A DNA stretch of 59,779 nucleotides from a bacterium (GTDB lineage Bacteria > Margulisbacteria > Marinamargulisbacteria > JAHFDA01), in NCBI GenBank assembly GCA_023249225.1, contig JAHFDA010000010.1:1-59779 (forward strand), written 5' to 3'. The notes below the pieces were generated by a model. It was not told where the DNA came from and searched no databases. It worked only from the letters and a program-made list of their open reading frames with translations. Shown one piece after another: positions 36,334 through 55,609 of the stretch. The translations under genes were made by a program, and so were the position numbers. The stretch's first letter is position 1. Every line of letters begins with the position of its first letter.

Positions 36334-36392
36334 GGATTGGCGAATATATTGTAGCTGCCCGGAGGCAGATGGTTTTAAACTTCCAGTTTGTC

Positions 36393-36398
36393 ATATAA
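36393..36398 (+). promoter_or_regulatory. TATAAT of the second RelE-type pair
   Basis: A perfect TATAAT lies 19 nt before the ATG at 36418 and 60 nt from the divergent decarboxylase start. Confidence 0.55.
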
Positions 36399-36417
36399 TG
36401 GCTTACAGAAACATCAT

Positions 36418-36648
36418 ATGAAGAAAGCTCATATTAATAAGATTGTAAGTTCGTTAGAGGATTTAAATGATCAGTATGGACCACAGGTACTAAACTTTGT
36501 TTCATATCTGGCTGCTGTTCAGGATTTTGATCAGGACATGCCCCTTTCGGACGAAGCAAAATCCATTCAAGATTTTCGCAAGAAAAAACAAAAAACGATT
36601 CCAGTGGACAAACTTTTAAAAGAGTTCAAGGTTCGTGTATCACGTTGA
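36418..36648 (+). CDS. Putative antitoxin of a RelE-type pair
   Basis: This 76-residue protein is mostly helical and charged (IVSSLEDLNDQYGPQVLNFV, then FRKKKQKTIPVDKLLKEFKV). It has no DNA-binding motif I can name, but its size, its 14-bp overlap with a RelE-like gene and its own TATAAT mark it as the antitoxin. The ATG at 36418 is chosen over an upstream TTG (36388) that would lie on the promoter. Confidence 0.7.
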   Translation: MKKAHINKIVSSLEDLNDQYGPQVLNFVSYLAAVQDFDQDMPLSDEAKSIQDFRKKKQKTIPVDKLLKEFKVRVSR

Positions 36649-36892
36649 AGTTAGTGACAAGGCCTATAAAGCCTTAAAAAAGTTTCCGCTTTTTCATGCC
36701 CAGGTTATTTTACGCAAGATCCATCTGTTAAAGCACTACGATCCATTGATGCCTAACATAAAGGCTTTAAAAGGCGAGTGGCAGGGAGTGTTTCGCCTGA
36801 GGGTTGGGAACTACCGCATTGTTTTTGAAATTCACCAAAGAAGTCTTGCCATCTTGATCATCGATATTTTTCATCGCGGCAAGGGTTACTGA
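36635..36892 (+). CDS. RelE/ParE-family toxin
   Basis: This 85-residue protein (GTG start) has MYHVEVSDKAYKALKKFPLF, NIKALKGEWQGVFRLRVGNY and RIVFEIHQRSLAILIIDIFH followed by RGKGY, the RelE/ParE superfamily core (L-x-G...R-x-R-V-G-x-Y-R-I). It is likely a ribosome-dependent RNase or gyrase poison, restrained by the upstream protein. It overlaps the antitoxin gene by 14 bp. The CysQ-like gene begins 12 bp after its stop. Confidence 0.85.
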   Translation: MYHVEVSDKAYKALKKFPLFHAQVILRKIHLLKHYDPLMPNIKALKGEWQGVFRLRVGNYRIVFEIHQRSLAILIIDIFHRGKGY

Positions 36893-38983: not shown

Positions 38984-39526
38984 ATGTCTTTATCTAAGTG
39001 GCTGATGGGCGTAGGGCTTGTGGTCGTGCTGTGTGTGCCGCGTCCGGCATTTGCCGCCCAATATGTTCCCAAGCCAGTGATTGCCGAGGGTCTGGCGCGG
39101 CGGTTGGTGGTGGTGGCATCCAATGTTCCCGAAGCCTTTGACCTTAAAGAGGGCGACCCTAAAGCGCCTTCTTCGGCACCAGAAGCGGGAACAGTATCTT
39201 ATGAACTTGACGATATCGAAGTGGGGCTCTGGTATAACGATGGCCAAAAGAATCAGTATGCCCCGCAGTCGATGGTACGCAAGGGTGCGGGGGTGTGGCT
39301 GTGCAATTATCACCGGTCAGCCTTAGAAATTGGAAAATGGTATGGCAATATTTATAAATTGGACGTGACGCTTTGGTTTCAATCAGGTGATGACACCAAA
39401 CGCATCAGGCGGCGCTATAGTACGGCAGAGGGTGCCGTCTTGCAGTCCTTGCATGTGGACATTTCAAGAATCACGCCCCGAGAAATAAACTTGGATATGT
39501 CCAAAATAGACCCTAAGATGGAATAG
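38984..39526 (+). CDS. Secreted protein, first of two tandem paralogues
   Basis: This 180-residue protein has a signal peptide (cleavage likely after AFA at 24). The mature part shares a conserved core with the next gene: YELDDIEVGLWYNDGQKN, W..NYHRS, GKWYGNIYKLDVTLWFQ and RRRYSTAEGAVLQSL. This suggests a beta-sandwich domain of about 110 residues. No known family is recognised. It is probably periplasmic or surface-exposed. It is followed by its paralogue and an SGNH-type protein in what looks like one operon. Confidence 0.7.
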   Translation: MSLSKWLMGVGLVVVLCVPRPAFAAQYVPKPVIAEGLARRLVVVASNVPEAFDLKEGDPKAPSSAPEAGTVSYELDDIEVGLWYNDGQKNQYAPQSMVRKGAGVWLCNYHRSALEIGKWYGNIYKLDVTLWFQSGDDTKRIRRRYSTAEGAVLQSLHVDISRITPREINLDMSKIDPKME

Positions 39527-39540
39527 AAAAGGAGATGAAA

Positions 39541-40098
39541 ATGAAGGTGATGGGTGGTCTGCTGGCAGGTCTTTTGCTTTTGGCATCGCCGTTGTATGCC
39601 GAGCAATTTCTTAAAGTGCCTATTTTTAAAGATGGCCAGTCGCGGGCGATTGCCGTCCATCTTGAAAGTGTGCCCGAAAGCTTTGAGCAAGAAACGGTAG
39701 ACTATATCGAAAGCCCCGGCAGCAGCGAAAACCTCACCACGCGTTCAGAAATAAAAATAAAAACAGCTTATGAACTTGACCAGGCCACCTTTGGCATGTG
39801 GTACAACGATGGTGATAAAAACAAGTTTATCGATGTACCTATGTACCGGCGCGCCAAAGGCCAATGGGTTTCTAATTTTCACCGGTCTTTGTTTTTTCCA
39901 TCCGGAAAATGGTTTGGCAATATTTACAAGGTGCAGGTGCAACTCGAGTATCAAAACCAGGATAACACCAAATCGTTGGTACGCATTTACAGCACAAAGT
40001 CCGGAGACCTGCTGTATTCACTGCGGGCAGCCACCATTTCTATGAGTCCTGCTGAATTGCTGCTTAATTTGCAAGGAGTCGACCCGTTGCAGAATTGA
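39541..40098 (+). CDS. Secreted protein, second tandem paralogue
   Basis: This 185-residue protein shares the core YELDQATFGMWYNDGDKN, WVSNFHRS, GKWFGNIYKVQVQLEYQ and RIYSTKSGDLLYSL with the preceding gene, so the pair arose by duplication. The signal peptide is MKVMGGLLAGLLLLASPLYA. ATG 39541 is chosen over 39535 because GGAG (39531-39534) sits at the right distance only from the second. The TGA overlaps the TTG start of the SGNH gene. Function unknown. Confidence 0.72.
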   Translation: MKVMGGLLAGLLLLASPLYAEQFLKVPIFKDGQSRAIAVHLESVPESFEQETVDYIESPGSSENLTTRSEIKIKTAYELDQATFGMWYNDGDKNKFIDVPMYRRAKGQWVSNFHRSLFFPSGKWFGNIYKVQVQLEYQNQDNTKSLVRIYSTKSGDLLYSLRAATISMSPAELLLNLQGVDPLQN

Positions 40099-41443: not shown

Positions 41444-44400
41444 ATGGGTCTGTTGCGCCAAGTGACGGATGTTTTGCCTATCGAGCCTTATCAGGTATCG
41501 CCTGCCATGCGCCGGGTGGCCTTGCCACAGTTGGTGGCTTTTTTGGAACATGCCACCAGTCTGCCAGTCGAGCAACGGCCCGCGGTTGAACTCTGGGCGC
41601 AGGACTTTGTTTTTTTTGCGCGTGATTTCAGTGCCTGGTATGTGACGGCCAGCAACCGAGGTGCGGTGACCGAAAAAGATCTGACGGCCTTAATTCAAAA
41701 TCAGGCCGAACATCGCTACCAGAGTTTTCTTGAATCAGTCTGTAATGCCATCGACGCCATGGCCGGCGGGCATAGCGACATCGGGCGTTTTGGGGTGGGG
41801 GTCTTTCAGATTTTCCGTGAACTCGAAAACTTTGGGGACCGTATTACGATTGAGTCGCAGACGCAGCGCGGAACAGGCCTGCGCCTTGACTTTGAAAAAG
41901 ACCGCAGTGGTGAAATTCTGGTGTCGTGGCAGACGGTCAACAAAACGTCGCCTGGGGTCACGCTGCGCTTGCAAAAATCCCTCACCACAGCGGCACAAAC
42001 CGAAATCAGTGGTTTTCTTGAACATAAACTAAAACTTAACCGCCGTGTCGCCCTGCGACTTAACACGGTTTCCATGAACCCGTTGAATGACTGGAAATCT
42101 GTCGAGGGAGAGCAACCAGTCTACGGTGAGTCGCATGGGCAGGTGGACATCAGTATCAACGCAGCAGGATTTACGGTGACGGATTCCGGCACCGGCATGG
42201 ACCCCGAAACTTTGTTTGGCGTTTTCTTGTTGCCGGGCGTCAGCTCAAAATTCCGCTCGCTGGCCAGAGACACGCGCGTGTTTTACCGGCCGCAGCCCGG
42301 CCAAACTTCCGCGTCACCGGCATGCGTGCGCTTGCAAGTGAGTGGAGTCGAGATTAAAACCATCGCGATACCAGCCGATGCCTTTGAAATGCCGTTTTTA
42401 GCGGCCGAAGTTGTACTTGAACTCGGTGAACATACCTGGCTGCCCGAGTCGCGCAACGAAGTTGCGGTGGATGCTGCCTTTAAGCGCAGTTTTGAGCAAG
42501 CATTGGATCAGGTCTTGGCTGCGCTGGCAGATTCTGCACACGATTCCCAGCGTGTTGCGGAGCTGATGGGCGTGATTAACAGCCTGTGGCAGGTAGCCCT
42601 GGCGTTGCAAAAAAAGAACAAATCCACGTTACGGTCTGATGATCTCACCTATGTGATGCTTCAAAAGCTGCGCCCGGTCTTTGAAATGTTAGAGCGCAAG
42701 GGTTATGTTTTTGCCCCCGCCAGCGAAGGATTTTCAAACTTGTCTGCTGACGGGACAAAAACCATTTTGTTTTATTCCCCCGTGGTGGCTCTGGACGGGA
42801 GTGCGCTGTATCTACTGAAACCAGCCGCATTGCCGGGCGCAAGGCAACTTGCTGCCGAGACGGGTACGCATCACGAGGCGTGGATGGTGGATACTTCCGA
42901 CGAGTCGCCCTCGGTTTTTATGTCGGGAGACAAAGTCTTTATTGCGCGTTGGGCGTATGAACGCAACGCAGATGACCTGACCATGATCAACTTGCAGATT
43001 AACCCCTTGGGCGGCACCGGCAACGAACAGCCCTTGCGCTTGTGGCTGACGGGCGGAGAAAAATCCATAGAAAAAAAAGGTGAACCGGTCGAATGGTCAC
43101 ACCATCTGCCCGTGCAAAGATCCGGAGCGGTTTCTGATTTGGTGATCTGGAATCAGGAGCAGGTGCAAAACGCCCATGATGTGGTGGCCGATGCGCTGGG
43201 AGTCGTGGGTATTAAAGTATCCGAAGTCAACCAACACTACCTGGAGGCGCTGACTTTAATGACCTTGTTTGATCAAAGCCATGGCGTGGATGCCCCGCTT
43301 GAAGCCTGGGTGGCTGTGTCTAAGGCGCTGCAGGCGTTGGCGGCCCGTCTTAAAGCCCTGCAAGATGCGGGGCTGCCGGTTCCGGAACTGGCTGCCACGA
43401 TGCACTGGTTGCGATCTCATGAATTCAATTTCGAAAAAGTTCATGAAGATAACGACTTGTCTTTGGATGCATTTACTTTTATTCATAAGAGCCGGGGGTA
43501 TTTGGTGGGTACTTTTATGGCCCAGGTATTTTTTATTAGCAGGTATAAAGAGGATTACTTTAGCGGACGGGAATTAAAAAAAATGGTCAAAGGAGTCAGG
43601 TTTGGGTGCGGATACCTGAATGCTTTGCCTATACCGGAAGCACAGGATGATGGAAGTCTAGATTTCAGCACTGTCCACAAGGAGCTCAATGATTTTGTAG
43701 AGCAGCATGCCTGGCTGCGTGGGCCTTATGCTTTTGATCAGAGCGAATGCCTTGTCCGTAATATCTTGCGCGGATATAAACAGCCCCAGAATTATTTACT
43801 GGCCGCCTTTTTTGAAGTGGAAACCTTGCAACGTCTGTACCCCGAAACCTGCCTTGTGCTACGTGCATTGCTGGCAGACAAGCCCATGGAATACATTCAA
43901 GACTTTTTTGTATTGCCGTCTATATTGCAACAGGTTCCGGCAGACAAGCTGGATGAGGAGGCTTTAAACCGCCTGCTGCAGCGTTGGGCCCGCCTGTATG
44001 CCGGCAGCAAGCGTCATGGCGATGAACTGGCCAGGCGTTTTACGTGCAAAGGAATTTTTACAGATTGGAAGCGATTTCATGATGCGGTTCAATCATTTCA
44101 AAACAGTCCAAATCCGGTTGAACAGGCATATGGAAATGCCATGGCAGAGAGACTGCGTTACACGACAGACGTTGTTGCTTCGTTGCAGCTTGAGCTTCCG
44201 CAGGGTCTTTACCCCATGCTTTATGGGCAACCTTTTCCGCCCGAACTGCGCTGGGTAGAGTTTTTGCTGGCAGACAAGGTCAATATACTACCGGTCAGGC
44301 AGCTGTCTGCAGATCTGGCGCCGGGTACTCGTGAGGATGCATGGTTGTCTACGGCGGTACATGCCCGGGTTGTATCCGACATGGGCGGGTCTTTTCCGCT

Positions 44401-46315
44401 GGCGCTGTTTACTCTGATTGAACGCGAAGAGCGCGAGCAGCTTGGCGTGGGCTTATCTTTGTCTATGTTTTCGCGCCTGGCTGGCTTGTATCGCGGCCGC
44501 CCGCTCACACGTGTCGAAGCCCAGCTACGCGAAGTGATCGCTGGCCAGGATCAGGCCGAAAATCTGTTTTTACGTGAAGTGGCTGCCCAAAACCCGCGTG
44601 ATTACTTTCGCTCGCATCAAATACCGCGTGAGCAACGGCGGGTCGATGTGCGCCATGAAATCTGTGAAAGTATTGCGCGGGGCGTGGTGACAGACACATG
44701 GTCGGTGGTGACAGTAGAAAATTCTGGGCGTGTCAGTCTGGGCGACCTGGTTCGCTACCTCTTTCCGCTGGATGCCAGCTCTAAACGGGGCCGGGTCTTA
44801 AACCCGGAGCTTCTTACGGGCATGTTCGGGCGTGGGTTTTATACGGTGTTTGCCGATTTTGACCGTGTGCGGGTGACAGCGGGTGACGGTCGCGGGCGGG
44901 TGTGGGAGGTGGACATTGAAAAACATGTCGATGGCCGTATTTGGGTGCGTGACCTGCGTGAACGGCACGAAAAATTTTCTGGCTTGCGCGTGGAGCGTTT
45001 TAAACGCGTTGATCCTGCCCAGGTCTGGCAGGCCCATATGGAAGGCGTGTTTATCAAAGAAGATCTTTATTTGTACGCATCGGCGATCCATGACATGGAT
45101 ATTTATTACAACGATAATGAACGCATCAATGAATCCCTGGTGAATATCGATCCGCAGCCTATGGCGGGTGAGCCCCAGGTACAGTGGCGGGTCTTTCACA
45201 GTCCATGGCGCCGTTGTCGTGTGACCCAGGATCGGCTGTACGTCTGTGATCTTGATGCCAATTTTAACGCGGCTGTTCCCGACTGGTTAAAAAAATACGT
45301 CGATGACTGGGGTCTTGTCATCGATCTGCCGCGCACGCTGCCGCTGACGCGTACGCGCAATGCCCAAGCGGGTCTGACCGAGGCCGACCGCGCTGATTTG
45401 CGGCAACATGTGTTTCATCTGTATTTGCGAGCTGCGATCCACTGTTTTTTAGAGACCGGTACTTTGCCAGGGGGTCCAAAGGACTTTTTGTATAGCGCCA
45501 ACATTGGCATAGATGACAATGCCATGGATCTTTTGTTTGGCATGTCACTACCTGATCTGCACGAACAATATGTCGTGGCGATGCAAGCAGGCGATACGGA
45601 ACTGCTGATTAGAATCGAGGCGGTGCTGATCAGCGCTGGGGTCTTGCTGGCCGCAGAGCGTGTTCAGCATTACCAGGCAGATCCGCGGGTGCTGTTTCAG
45701 CTGCTTTCGCACGTAAAAATCATGTTCAATGAGCGTCTGCTGTCGATGGACGATGTGCGCCGGGCTTGTCTTGAGCGGCGTGATATTCCGGAACTGGGGC
45801 TCTTGCTGCGTGATACCGTTACGGCATTACAACCGATGGTGCTTGGCCGACACGAGCGAGACATCCACGAGATCCGCGATGATTTTTCAGGCCGCTCTGC
45901 TGCGATTGATTTTGCAGCCCGGTTTTTAAGTGGGGCCTATACCGATAAACCGATCAGCCCTGACCAAGTGTTGTTTTATTCAGGTTACGAAGGGGTAAGC
46001 ATGTATATGGTGGCTGACCAGGAATTGCTCATGAACATCAATTCCGAAGGCACCCGAGATTTTTTAGGGACATTCTCCGAGCCTGATGATGAAATCTCTT
46101 TGTTATCTTCCACGTCGTCTTTTGCCAGGGGCTGCCAGGTGCTGGTACACGAAGGCGCGCACCGCATGCAAGACGATCAATATGTGCATGACGAAACGCC
46201 GGGTGCCGAAGGCACGCAAATTGCCTTGGAATATCAAGCCCGCGAGCGGCTGATTCGCGCGGGGGTGTCGCCGCTGGCGTTATTGCGTCAAAGCCTAGTG
46301 AATAATCCAGGCTAG
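41444..46315 (+). CDS. Giant protein with Hsp90/sacsin-like GHKL ATPase motifs and a C-terminal HExxH zincin site
   Basis: This 1623-residue protein is of no family I recognise. N-terminal part: ESVCNAIDAM (97-106) is a Bergerat N-box, IGRFGVGVFQIF (113-124) is like the Hsp90 G2 box, and VTDSGTGMDPETLF (245-258) is a G1 box, so the order is N-G2-G1 instead of N-G1-G2. A second, apparently degenerate GHKL-like region lies at 1070-1150 (EICESIARG, ENSGRV at 1092-1097, GMFGRGF at 1126-1132). The C-terminus has HEGAH (H1569-H1573) with downstream H1582 and E1596, fitting a zinc metallopeptidase. No signal peptide, so it is probably cytoplasmic. Conformational ATPase coupled to proteolysis is an inference. 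Confidence 0.75.
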   Translation: MGLLRQVTDVLPIEPYQVSPAMRRVALPQLVAFLEHATSLPVEQRPAVELWAQDFVFFARDFSAWYVTASNRGAVTEKDLTALIQNQAEHRYQSFLESVCNAIDAMAGGHSDIGRFGVGVFQIFRELENFGDRITIESQTQRGTGLRLDFEKDRSGEILVSWQTVNKTSPGVTLRLQKSLTTAAQTEISGFLEHKLKLNRRVALRLNTVSMNPLNDWKSVEGEQPVYGESHGQVDISINAAGFTVTDSGTGMDPETLFGVFLLPGVSSKFRSLARDTRVFYRPQPGQTSASPACVRLQVSGVEIKTIAIPADAFEMPFLAAEVVLELGEHTWLPESRNEVAVDAAFKRSFEQALDQVLAALADSAHDSQRVAELMGVINSLWQVALALQKKNKSTLRSDDLTYVMLQKLRPVFEMLERKGYVFAPASEGFSNLSADGTKTILFYSPVVALDGSALYLLKPAALPGARQLAAETGTHHEAWMVDTSDESPSVFMSGDKVFIARWAYERNADDLTMINLQINPLGGTGNEQPLRLWLTGGEKSIEKKGEPVEWSHHLPVQRSGAVSDLVIWNQEQVQNAHDVVADALGVVGIKVSEVNQHYLEALTLMTLFDQSHGVDAPLEAWVAVSKALQALAARLKALQDAGLPVPELAATMHWLRSHEFNFEKVHEDNDLSLDAFTFIHKSRGYLVGTFMAQVFFISRYKEDYFSGRELKKMVKGVRFGCGYLNALPIPEAQDDGSLDFSTVHKELNDFVEQHAWLRGPYAFDQSECLVRNILRGYKQPQNYLLAAFFEVETLQRLYPETCLVLRALLADKPMEYIQDFFVLPSILQQVPADKLDEEALNRLLQRWARLYAGSKRHGDELARRFTCKGIFTDWKRFHDAVQSFQNSPNPVEQAYGNAMAERLRYTTDVVASLQLELPQGLYPMLYGQPFPPELRWVEFLLADKVNILPVRQLSADLAPGTREDAWLSTAVHARVVSDMGGSFPLALFTLIEREEREQLGVGLSLSMFSRLAGLYRGRPLTRVEAQLREVIAGQDQAENLFLREVAAQNPRDYFRSHQIPREQRRVDVRHEICESIARGVVTDTWSVVTVENSGRVSLGDLVRYLFPLDASSKRGRVLNPELLTGMFGRGFYTVFADFDRVRVTAGDGRGRVWEVDIEKHVDGRIWVRDLRERHEKFSGLRVERFKRVDPAQVWQAHMEGVFIKEDLYLYASAIHDMDIYYNDNERINESLVNIDPQPMAGEPQVQWRVFHSPWRRCRVTQDRLYVCDLDANFNAAVPDWLKKYVDDWGLVIDLPRTLPLTRTRNAQAGLTEADRADLRQHVFHLYLRAAIHCFLETGTLPGGPKDFLYSANIGIDDNAMDLLFGMSLPDLHEQYVVAMQAGDTELLIRIEAVLISAGVLLAAERVQHYQADPRVLFQLLSHVKIMFNERLLSMDDVRRACLERRDIPELGLLLRDTVTALQPMVLGRHERDIHEIRDDFSGRSAAIDFAARFLSGAYTDKPISPDQVLFYSGYEGVSMYMVADQELLMNINSEGTRDFLGTFSEPDDEISLLSSTSSFARGCQVLVHEGAHRMQDDQYVHDETPGAEGTQIALEYQARERLIRAGVSPLALLRQSLVNNPG

Positions 46316-51911: not shown

Positions 51912-52718
51912 ATGAAAAAAAATACTCAAACTGGCCTTAGCTCCTCCGAAAGAAAAATAGTTGCACATTTTTCTGCAAATGAGCAAACGAGCATTGACGT
52001 TGATGCCCTACTGGGCGTCATGAGCATTTCTAGACCCGCAGCCCATCAAATTCTTAGTCGGCTAGAACGCAAGGGGTGGTTGCAACGATTGAAGCGCGGA
52101 AAATATGCCCTCGTTCCCATTTCATCGAATAGTGCAAACCCCGTTATCGAAGATGCGCTTCCTCTTGCAATGGATTTATTTAAACCTGCTTTTATCAGTG
52201 GTTGGTCAGCTGCCGAGCACTGGGATTTAACCGAACAAATTTTTAATAGCGTTTCAGTGGTAACGGCAAAGACGCAGCGTCAATCGGAAGTTAAAGCGGG
52301 CGGTATTCTATTTCGCCTGAGGGTAATACCCAAAGATCGTTTTTTTGGAAGCAAGTCGATTTGGTTTGGTAGTAAACAAGTTGAGATTGCTGACCCAAGC
52401 CGCATGGTGATCGATATTTTAGACTTGCCTCGATTTGGAGGTGGCGGCCGCCATACGGTGGATGTGATACGCGAGTATCTAAAATCAAAACACTGTAATC
52501 TGGACTTGTTGCTGGAATACGCCTTGCGTTACAAAAAAGGTAGCGTGTTTAAACGGCTGGGGTTTTTGGTTGAAAATTTTCATCCAGCGGTCACTGGGGA
52601 TTGGTGTCATCGATGCATCAGCAATTTAAGCGCAGGTGTTTCTTTGCTAGATCCTGACGGACCCAGCCAGGGAAAGACTTCGACCAAGTGGAAATTGCGC
52701 ATTAACCTGCCGATATAA
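51912..52718 (+). CDS. AbiEi-like antitoxin/repressor
   Basis: This 268-residue protein has an N-terminal winged helix (residues 12-70, SISRPAAHQILSRLERKGWL and then QRLKRGKYALVP), a middle domain with ISGWSAAEHWDLTEQIFNSV and a C-terminal domain ending in KWKLRINLPI, as in AbiEi type-IV antitoxins. It should repress its own promoter and counter the nucleotidyltransferase encoded 6 bp downstream. GC content and codon use are lower than in the flanking housekeeping genes. Confidence 0.9.
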   Translation: MKKNTQTGLSSSERKIVAHFSANEQTSIDVDALLGVMSISRPAAHQILSRLERKGWLQRLKRGKYALVPISSNSANPVIEDALPLAMDLFKPAFISGWSAAEHWDLTEQIFNSVSVVTAKTQRQSEVKAGGILFRLRVIPKDRFFGSKSIWFGSKQVEIADPSRMVIDILDLPRFGGGGRHTVDVIREYLKSKHCNLDLLLEYALRYKKGSVFKRLGFLVENFHPAVTGDWCHRCISNLSAGVSLLDPDGPSQGKTSTKWKLRINLPI

Positions 52719-52724
52719 ACAACG

Positions 52725-53915
52725 ATGATCACCAAAGCGGAAATACTTGCCTTATCAACCCATTTAAACTTGCTGAATACGATCGTTCAAAAAGACTACG
52801 TGATTGGGTGGTTGCTCCGTGGCTTCTCACAGCACGGTGTGCTTTCTGAATGGATATTTAAAGGCGGAACTTGCCTGAAGAAGTGCTATTTTGAAACGTA
52901 CCGATTTTCGGAAGACTTGGATTTTACGGTTCCGGCACACCAAAAAATAGATGTTCCTTTTTTAGAAACACATTTGAATGAGATGGCGGAGTGGGTGGAA
53001 TCAAATTGCGGTCTAACATTTCCACGCGAAGTCTGGAAGATTGAAGCCTACGAAAATACGCGTGGCAAAATGTCGTACCAAGTTAAGCTGCCTTTTTCGG
53101 GACCCCTGGGTCTTTCAAAAAATCAATTACAGCGAGTCAAGCTGGATATTACCCAGGACGAACTGCTCGTGAGCCAGCCTGTCCGACGCAACTTGCATCA
53201 CGACTATTCAGATAAAACGATGCCAATGTCTGAGGTGTTGTGTTATTCGATAGAAGAAGTTTTGGCCGAGAAAACACGAGCACTTTTTGAACGAAGCGGC
53301 CGCGCACGTGACGTTTACGATGTGGTAAACATCAGCCGTCATTTTAGAAGCGAGATAGATCCCGACCAAGTGATACACATAGCCAAGGAAAAATTTCGCT
53401 TCAAAGGAATCTCGGAACCTACGGTCGATCTGATTATGAACAGCCTGGATATTGCTACCTTGGGGGCCAATTGGAAACATCAACTGGCCCACCAAATTAA
53501 TTTGCTTCCGGCGGTTGAAACTTTTATTGAAGACCTTTCGGATGCTTTGGCGTGGTGGCTGGAGCCTAAAAAAGCCAAGCCTGATTTACAGCAAAATCCC
53601 AGTGCTGTTGGTAGGTTAATGGAACGGGTTATGTTTCCCGAGGTCAGCGTCCAACGTGGATTGTCCGCAATGGATCAAATTCGATATGCGGCGCGTAACC
53701 GCTTTTGTGCGGTTGTCAGTTATCACGGTTCAACTCGGCTCGTCATACCTTATTCAGTTCGCTATCCTAGTGCTGGCAACCCATTGCTTCATGCATGGGA
53801 ATTAATGAATGATGGTAAAGCCATCAATGACCACCGAGCCTATAAAATAGACGAAATCACGGAGGCGTCGGTCTCTACCGAAACTTTTGTGCCCAAGTGG
53901 TCGGTGGAATTGTAA
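52725..53915 (+). CDS. AbiEii-like nucleotidyltransferase toxin with a C-terminal WYL-like domain
   Basis: This 396-residue protein's N-terminal 230 residues are the AbiEii nucleotidyltransferase: VQKDYVIGWLL, FKGGTCLKKCYF (G47-G48) and FSEDLDF with D64 and D66, then a conserved EEVLAEKTRALFERSGRARD. The last about 80 residues (YAARNRFCAVVSYHGSTRLV, then IPYSVRY and AYKIDEITEAS) resemble a WYL domain, a ligand- or nucleotide-sensing module. The domain may gate the toxin. The two genes form the AbiE phage-defence / toxin-antitoxin system. Confidence 0.88.
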   Translation: MITKAEILALSTHLNLLNTIVQKDYVIGWLLRGFSQHGVLSEWIFKGGTCLKKCYFETYRFSEDLDFTVPAHQKIDVPFLETHLNEMAEWVESNCGLTFPREVWKIEAYENTRGKMSYQVKLPFSGPLGLSKNQLQRVKLDITQDELLVSQPVRRNLHHDYSDKTMPMSEVLCYSIEEVLAEKTRALFERSGRARDVYDVVNISRHFRSEIDPDQVIHIAKEKFRFKGISEPTVDLIMNSLDIATLGANWKHQLAHQINLLPAVETFIEDLSDALAWWLEPKKAKPDLQQNPSAVGRLMERVMFPEVSVQRGLSAMDQIRYAARNRFCAVVSYHGSTRLVIPYSVRYPSAGNPLLHAWELMNDGKAINDHRAYKIDEITEASVSTETFVPKWSVEL

Positions 53916-54116: not shown

Positions 54117-55166
54117 TTAAGGTGTTTTGATCTGATACACCGCCGACCGACCTCCGCCCAGACGCTGGATAATTTCAAGCTGGGTCAGCTTGTTTAAATC
54201 AGCCACGGTTTGTGTTCTTCCCAAACCCAAAAGGGTAGCGTAGTCGGCAGCTTTCAGTTTTTTGTGTTTTTTAAACAGGCCGACGGCTTTTTGCAGGCGT
54301 TCCTCAAGCTCAAGCAGGGCAGGGTCGCTGGGTGCGGCGGCCTGGCAGCGGGAGAGGGCTTCGGCATAGGTTTTTTCAAGACAGCCCAGCCAGTAATTCA
54401 GCCAGGGCGTCAGATCAATGTCCGTGGGGATGTCGTAAAAAGTGGGGGCCTGCAAACGGCGCAAGGCGCGGTAATAGGCGGCACGGTTGAGTTCATGCTG
54501 TTTTTCGATGGCGGCATAGTGCGCCACGGTGTAACCCTGGTGTTCCAAGATAAAGTTGGTCAGCAGTCGGGTGCTGCGGCCGTTCCCATCCAAAAAGGGA
54601 TGGATGGTGACAAAGTAATAATGAAAAATGGGCGCTATCAAAAGCGGGCTGGTCTTGGCCAGCGTGGATTGGCGCACCCAGGCCAGCAGGGATTTCATCA
54701 GTCCCGGAACATCGTCGGCCTGCGGAGGCAGGTACACGATGGCGTTGGAGCCTGTATCTTTGATGACGTTCTGGGATTGACGGTAGTGGCCGGCCAGTTT
54801 GCCCATGAGAATGTTTTTGACCAGTTGCTGGTGTACCCCTAGAACCAAAACGTTATCCATCGTTTTGGCCTTGTCCAAAAGAAAGGCGCGAGCCTTGGCG
54901 TAATTAAGCACCTCTTTAAGATCGCGCTGGGATTTGGTTTTGGGCTTTTGACCGCCCAAGGCGCGGGTCACTTGTTCGTACGACAGCGTGTTGCCTTCGA
55001 GTTTGGTGGAAAAATGCACGGCGTCGATGTTGGCCAGGGCATAAATGTGGGTGGCATCTCCCACGCTATGGAGGGAGCTTTGCATTTGTCCCTGCATACG
55101 GGCAATGGTTTCGAGATGTACAAGCAGTTCCGAGGTTAACTGATATTGCGGGCGATAGACCCCCAT
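54117..55166 (-). CDS. Fic-family AMP transferase with N-terminal inhibitory helix and C-terminal winged helix
   Basis: This 349-residue protein has a class II Fic layout: an inhibitory motif STKLEGN (S53 to N59), a Fic core with HPFLDGNGR (H189 to R197), the upstream flap QNVIKDTGSNAIVYLPP, and a C-terminal winged helix (about 285-349, KAADYATLLGLGRTQTVADL). It would AMPylate a protein hydroxyl and be kept inactive by its own helix. It sits between the AbiE pair and ssrA. Three 11-bp-spaced direct repeats lie just upstream. Confidence 0.92.
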   Translation of the reverse strand: MGVYRPQYQLTSELLVHLETIARMQGQMQSSLHSVGDATHIYALANIDAVHFSTKLEGNTLSYEQVTRALGGQKPKTKSQRDLKEVLNYAKARAFLLDKAKTMDNVLVLGVHQQLVKNILMGKLAGHYRQSQNVIKDTGSNAIVYLPPQADDVPGLMKSLLAWVRQSTLAKTSPLLIAPIFHYYFVTIHPFLDGNGRSTRLLTNFILEHQGYTVAHYAAIEKQHELNRAAYYRALRRLQAPTFYDIPTDIDLTPWLNYWLGCLEKTYAEALSRCQAAAPSDPALLELEERLQKAVGLFKKHKKLKAADYATLLGLGRTQTVADLNKLTQLEIIQRLGGGRSAVYQIKTP

Positions 55167-55218: not shown

Positions 55219-55609
55219 TGGTGGAGACGGCGGGAATTGAACCCGCGTCCGAAACACAAGCACAGCACAGGCGCTACGAGCATAGCCCTACGTTAATCTC
55301 GCAACCAGACGGAGTAAGACATCCACGTTGGTTGCCAGCCTGCAGAGTTAAGTTTCATGCGCGTGCCCGCAGGCACACAAGCGCACTAGCCAGAAGATGG
55401 TCGTTGTTTTAAAGCCTCTGGCAGACCTTAAGCAACGACTAGCGGAATATGTCCGCCAGGTTTAAGCCGCTAAAGCGTAAGCTTCGGCGGTCTCAAACGA
55501 AGCAACTAGGTTGTTTGCGTTTGTTTTTTTGTGCCTTGATAACGGGGCCTGGCACCTCCCCGGCTCGCTCCCATACCGTCTTCTATCCCGTCGAGACCAT
55601 TTCGTCCCC
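55219..55609 (-). ncRNA. ssrA: Transfer-messenger RNA (tmRNA)
   Basis: A one-piece tmRNA of 391 nt. The 5' end GGGGACG (at 55609) pairs with CGTCTCC before A and CCA (55219). The tag reading frame runs 55518 to 55462 on the minus strand and encodes ANNLVASFETAEAYALAA, ending in the ClpXP-type ALAA. It rescues ribosomes stalled on broken mRNA. TATAAT at 55636-55631 (minus) is a plausible promoter, giving a short 5' leader removed by RNase P. The smpB gene is not in the window. Confidence 0.97.

Follow-up and report, generated by a model that had tools for sequence, protein, structure and literature searches.

A very rare bacterial protein family with one segment-transposed Bergerat domain, one canonical Bergerat domain and a C-terminal HExxH module

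Introduction

The GHKL (Bergerat) fold is common to Hsp90, sacsin and MutL, and the HExxH motif is the mark of zincins. To our knowledge, all known ATP-dependent bacterial proteases use AAA+ motors. Here, a 59,779-nucleotide stretch of margulisbacterial DNA (contig JAHFDA010000010.1, forward strand; the window) was analysed for the gene P0001, the product of which joins two Bergerat domains to a C-terminal HExxH module. Every part of P0001 falls in a known superfamily, and several described systems can be compared with it.

With HtpG/Hsp90, P0001 shares an N-domain that is collinear with its second Bergerat domain (domain 2), parts that recur in its first (domain 1), and arginine-loop-like motifs placed after both domains. 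It differs in carrying two N-domains per chain, one of them transposed, in its HExxH C-terminus and in being 2.5 times longer. The HSP90 middle/C-terminal domain (PF00183) was found neither in P0001 up to E 10 nor in six members of its family up to E 1. Comparison of the middle and C-terminal slices of the family with HtpG was not significant, and the Hsp90 C-terminal dimerisation domain was undetected.

Sacsin is likewise large with repeated Hsp90-like domains, and its NF047352 domain (also the PF25794 type) matches all six family members scanned. Sacsin too has a catalytic arginine, located in a reduced middle domain (PMC9880540). P0001 differs from it by having two repeats instead of three SIRPT repeats, a transposed domain 1 and a zincin module, and the UBL, XPCB, J and HEPN domains gave no Pfam match in any member. 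VcSduA, a Shedu-type protein with an N-terminal GHKL domain (PMC12137116), resembles P0001 in the proposed gating of a linked effector enzyme by a GHKL ATPase; however, its effector is a PD-(D/E)xK nuclease and not an HExxH enzyme, its GHKL domain is single and canonical, and its context is defence.

The zincins of clan MA share with P0001 the HExxH and a downstream His, the third His being followed by Gly in most members of the family, whereas none of the peptidase-family profiles matched the P0001 module significantly. The C-terminal site may be comparable with that of SprT-like HExxH...H enzymes. MutL, MORC and phage rIIA-type GHKL proteins belong to the same Bergerat superfamily, but the profile matches of the P0001 family are closest to sacsin/HSP90, and the MutL and MORC accessory domains were not found in it.

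Results

P0001 (41444..46315, + strand, as are all features of the gene given below) starts with ATG, contains no internal stop and encodes 1623 amino acids; GGGAAG is located about 10 bases upstream of the start. The open reading frame described in an earlier sequence-only reading was confirmed together with its motifs, ESVCNAIDA (97-105), GRFGVGVF (114-121), DSGTGM (247-252) and HEGAH (1569-1573). The terminator-like structure that it had placed before the gene scored no better than shuffled sequence (z -0.44), the scan being at chance level. The GC3 of P0001 is 57% compared with 52-65% in the neighbours; its composition is native and matches the neighbouring genes, by which recent horizontal import was ruled out. 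When P0001 was searched alone, Pfam gave HATPase_c with E 0.0022, below the cut-off and covering only the G1 strip (231-258). NCBIfam gave NF047352, the sacsin-type ATPase domain, with E 1.3e-4 at residues 1076-1144 (22.4 bits, under the 50-bit cut-off), and none of the PDB chain sequences matched significantly.

A search of 95 related genomes recovered the 2102-aa paralogue P0002 from the same genome and relatives from two other genomes of the phylum, so that the family comprises seven members of 1.6-2.1 kaa in three genomes of one phylum. Full-length members were detected by profile search in 3 of the 74 species of the phylum, the weaker matches among these species being short HtpG-like frames that were left out of the count. 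The same three genomes were the only positives when the profile was run over 383 relatives (3/383), and another 382 genomes gave no match. One of the three is candidate division WOR-1 (Margulisbacteria) bacterium RIFOXYB2_FULL_37_13, contig MEUB01000017.1. A genome-contig collection yielded nothing with P0001 as query and only the WOR-1 contig already known with a WOR-1 member subset, and phage, plasmid and viral-contig collections contained no homologue. The family is coherent and very rare.

Each family-bearing genome has 2-3 highly diverged copies. Pairwise identity is 20-30% for most pairs and 57% for one orthologous pair, the closest orthologues, for which dN was 0.34 and dS 1.89, indicating purifying selection. 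In a tree of the C-terminal region the two copies of the window genome are set apart from the WOR-1-side copies, with long branches and an uncertain join. All seven members contain three conserved modules, namely the transposed N-terminal Bergerat domain, the canonical second one and the C-terminal HExxH module. Homologues lacking the motifs were looked for; the family keeps them, and the reading as an ATPase-metallopeptidase was not refuted on this point. One WOR-1 member, P0004/P0003 (L012:5332-10904), consists of two frames overlapping by about 61 nt, which may stem from a frameshift or a faulty assembly, or the protein may really be made of two subunits.

Domain 1 (residues ~84-275; 41693..42268) has the complete GHKL feature set (N-box E..xN, G1 DxGxG and G2 GxxGxG) in 7/7 members. 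The N-box ESVCNAIDA (41732..41758) contains the invariant E97 and N101, equivalents of the catalytic Glu and the Mg-binding Asn of Hsp90, respectively. G2, GRFGVGVF (41783..41806), follows immediately past the N-box with invariant G114, G117 and G119. The G1 segment (42134..42250), a beta hairpin with DSGTGM and SSK, comes only after these, and its D247, G249, G251 and M252 are also invariant, as are thus all ATP-site residues of the domain. The canonical order N-box, G1, G2 is kept by domain 2 and departed from by domain 1. The sequence-only reading had recognised an N-terminal GHKL/Hsp90-related domain, rightly as regards the ATP-site motifs, all of which are present, although it listed their non-canonical order and passed over it.

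The N-terminal slice of the family was compared with HtpG of the same phylum by HMM-HMM alignment (hhalign), and the match was non-collinear. The N-box aligned to HtpG columns 53-70 (P 0.002, weak alone). Columns 144-241 were matched by the G2-plus-sheet stretch that comes next (P 9e-6), and columns 70-127 by the G1 stretch further on (P 8e-6). With HtpG written as A-B-C, domain 1 is A-C-B and is therefore not a cyclic permutation. The G1 segment was then excised from the alignment in silico and reinserted between the N-box and G2. The re-ordered domain gave a single collinear match to HtpG, the score rising from 51 to 111 (P 4.5e-14), and its score against the family's own domain 2 rose from 58 to 101 (P 1.7e-13). 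In the control, 200 random segment moves had a median score of 51-52, and the top ones were mostly near-copies of the G1 move. Since moving G1 back yields one collinear match to HtpG, the alignments show a true, non-cyclic segment transposition; since the order is identical in 7/7 members, the transposition predates their divergence. Domain 1 was missed by standard HMMs in part because G1 is transposed.

The joining stretch of about 1200 residues, previously considered unassignable, holds domain 2 (residues ~1039-1229; 44558..45130), a Hsp90/sacsin-like Bergerat domain in canonical order. It aligned in order to HtpG columns 55-240 (hhalign, probability 98.2, P 2.7e-14), and this homology with HtpG and sacsin is shown by the profile comparisons and the residue table. 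Among the six full-length members scanned, the best NF047352 match was 8.8e-11 and HATPase_c_3 matched five; NCBIfam HSP90 models matched 3-4 members. The earlier statement that P0001 belongs to no recognised family accordingly holds at full length but not for this domain, which is of the sacsin/HSP90 group. The G1 motif of domain 2 is eroded in the window genome, reading ENSGRV in P0001 and SDPAGM in P0002, and is intact or nearly so in other members (DDGKGL, DFGSGM, DSGKGM); in the WOR-1 members domain 2 has the full motif set.

Two arginine motifs follow the Bergerat domains. LPESRN (333-338; 42440..42457) is, by motif register, a possible counterpart of the arginine loop of the Hsp90 middle domain; its SRN arginine is present past domain 1 in the two proteins of the window genome and absent from the WOR-1 members. 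LTRTRN (1301-1306; 45344..45361), with invariant T1302 and R1305, may by its register be the catalytic-Arg loop of domain 2. The resemblance to the Hsp90 middle domain is one of register and motif, the HMM comparison with HtpG being not significant. The distribution of G1 and arginine motifs is suggestive of a division of labour between domains 1 and 2. The variable middle (residues ~560-1000; 43121..44443) is poorly conserved, matches no family and is replaced in the homologues by a different, longer segment. It appears helical in P0001, and residues ~600-950 of the WOR-1 members P0006-P0008 appear strand-rich and repeat-like (propeller-like by eye).

The zincin-like module (residues ~1480-1623; 45881..46312) was delimited by the seven-sequence alignment. 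The last 280 residues contain eight invariant columns over the seven sequences (G1399, L1417, L1420, H1569, E1570, H1573, H1582 and P1610), and four of them correspond to the catalytic Glu and the zinc ligands to be expected, in members only 13-19% identical to P0001. H1569, E1570 and H1573 belong to the HEGAH motif (46148..46162), and H1582 (46187..46189) is the likely third ligand. Its distance from HExxH varies widely and it usually stands within [ST]HG. A downstream His and Glu had both been suggested as third ligand; the His is invariant in 7/7 members and the Glu is not conserved. The conserved HExxH...H strongly supports a functional zinc site, which presumably belongs to a peptidase. 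AlphaFold models reached pLDDT 37 and 38 (from alignments of one or two rows, the 38 model being single-sequence), so the fold and the zinc geometry are predictions from sequence.

The mini-zincin Acel_2062 structurally resembles the C-terminal domain of HtpG (PMC3890501), and given this it is intriguing that the zincin-like module takes the C-terminal position after a Hsp90-like unit. Comparison of the module with the HtpG C-domain gave no sequence link, and sequence homology between the two was rejected.

Discussion

We tentatively propose that P0001 is a cytoplasmic, single-chain ATP clamp of the Hsp90/sacsin type carrying its own zinc peptidase. Domains 1 and 2 of one polypeptide, transposed and canonical respectively, would stand in for the two N-domains of a Hsp90 dimer. 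The variable middle region would hold a client protein, and the clamp would close on it when ATP binds, which in P0001 would happen mainly at domain 1, the intact one. Closing would in turn make the C-terminal HExxH...H site accessible or unlock it, and the client would be cut there. Such a protein would turn over ATP, bind zinc, act as a peptidase and couple these activities, and would serve in protein quality control or stress. A precedent for this kind of control is VcSduA, the GHKL domain of which, with a clamp-like middle, is proposed to control the attached nuclease (PMC12137116). Several points speak against a clamp-peptidase: the models of low pLDDT leave fold and zinc geometry as predictions, the likeness to the Hsp90 arginine loop is not significant by HMM and the arginine past domain 1 is missing in the WOR-1 members, the zincin-like module matches no peptidase family significantly, the G1 Asp/Gly pattern of domain 2 is lost in P0001, no partner gene or regulatory context indicates quality control, and the genome already has an ordinary HtpG.

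An ordinary HtpG is absent from the other two family-bearing genomes, and P0001 is therefore no simple HtpG substitute; replacement of HtpG by P0001 was ruled out, the window genome carrying both. The HtpG of the window genome (G000:C41:7086-8474) scores about 458 bits, like those of other classes of the phylum, compared with about 70-216 bits in its own class. It is of a different type, possibly transferred or due to binning noise.

A role in quality control or stress was preferred over defence on the basis of the kinship with sacsin/Hsp90 and the housekeeping neighbourhoods, while defence retains some likelihood in view of the patchy distribution and the rapid divergence. An anti-phage or conflict protein, in which the double Bergerat unit detects a signal tied to an invader and thereby activates a metallopeptidase that is suicidal or directed at the invader, is in our estimate unlikely. 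It would fit the occurrence in so few species of the phylum, the multiple diverged copies per genome, the variable middle, the proposal that GHKL domains regulate defence effectors (PMC12137116) and an AbiEi-like gene 6 kb downstream of P0001. The loci themselves argue otherwise. P0001 lies among genes for an inositol phosphatase, an aldo/keto reductase, a GDSL lipase, a UDG, an epimerase and a saccharopine-dehydrogenase-like protein (identified by Pfam, except the reductase, which was read from the translation). P0002 (L011:6129-12434, contig C16) is inserted antisense between hemD and hemB, breaking a haem-biosynthesis run. Other members are located near rpsB/polA/sigma-54, nusG/rpoB, fumarase/malate dehydrogenase and NAD kinase. 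None of the family loci is placed in a defence island, PADLOC gave no match for P0001 and only weak GHKL-type matches for single other members, and the native composition and the lack of homologues in phage, plasmid and viral contigs point the same way. That P0001 stands alone, as had been noted earlier, was borne out, no neighbour being common to any homologue's locus.

The protein could also be a sacsin-like chaperone or scaffold without proteolysis, which only holds or remodels its clients and uses HExxH as a structural or regulatory zinc site. We regard this as improbable, although the closeness of domain 2 to sacsin/HSP90 models, the missing peptidase-family match and the variable spacing of the third His are all consistent with it. 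The HExxH catalytic Glu, invariant in 7/7 members, would be needless at a purely structural zinc site.

Still more improbable in our judgement is that domain 1 consists of the remnants of two Bergerat domains, an N-box+G2 half and a G1 half, with each half possibly supplying what the other lacks across two chains, like a strand-swapped dimer. The easiest path to a non-cyclic order would be a duplication with later complementary loss (ABC-ABC to A-C-B). Each motif, however, occurs once and in the same order in 7/7 members, and the re-ordered sequence aligns full length with no parts missing; even then the site would still be transposed. Chance co-occurrence of the motifs in an unrelated long protein, for which only the sub-threshold Pfam match of the single protein would speak, is refuted by the homologues, since profile matches reach P 1e-14 and the motifs are invariant or conserved in six more homologues at about 20% identity.

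If the tentative clamp-peptidase reading is true, ATP would here be coupled to protein destruction in a different way, through a Hsp90-type clamp that has its peptidase built in. The full form of this idea, that a lineage-restricted clamp, made in a single chain from a segment-transposed Bergerat domain and a canonical one, directly drives the zinc protease fused to it without an AAA+ motor, with a working ATP site in a natural non-cyclic Bergerat rearrangement, we consider doubtful. Whatever the function, a conserved non-cyclic G1 transposition is an unusual find in so old an ATPase fold, and it shows how far the Bergerat fold tolerates rewiring. The conserved A-C-B order was not found in the profile libraries or open-access literature searched. 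Neither permuted GHKL domains in the open-access papers searched nor a GHKL-zincin fusion or double-Bergerat-plus-zincin protein in the libraries and open-access literature searched gave a precedent, and such absence is no proof of novelty. Other rearranged GHKL domains may hide in proteins annotated as unknown, and a search for them is suggested.

Some other genes of the window were also observed. A small gene pair at 36388-36892, the second of which matches the ParE toxin, is a probable ParDE-like toxin-antitoxin system. At 38984-40098, two adjacent paralogous proteins of 180 and 187 aa are encoded beside the GDSL-like gene; their starts resemble signal peptides, and Pfam gave no match for either. 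At 51912-53915, an AbiEi-like regulator (Pfam AbiEi_4) precedes a 396-aa gene resembling its AbiEii partner, the two being a probable toxin-antitoxin or defence pair, and a Fic-type protein at 54117-55166 (HPFLDGNGR in its translation) adjoins the tmRNA gene (55219-55609).
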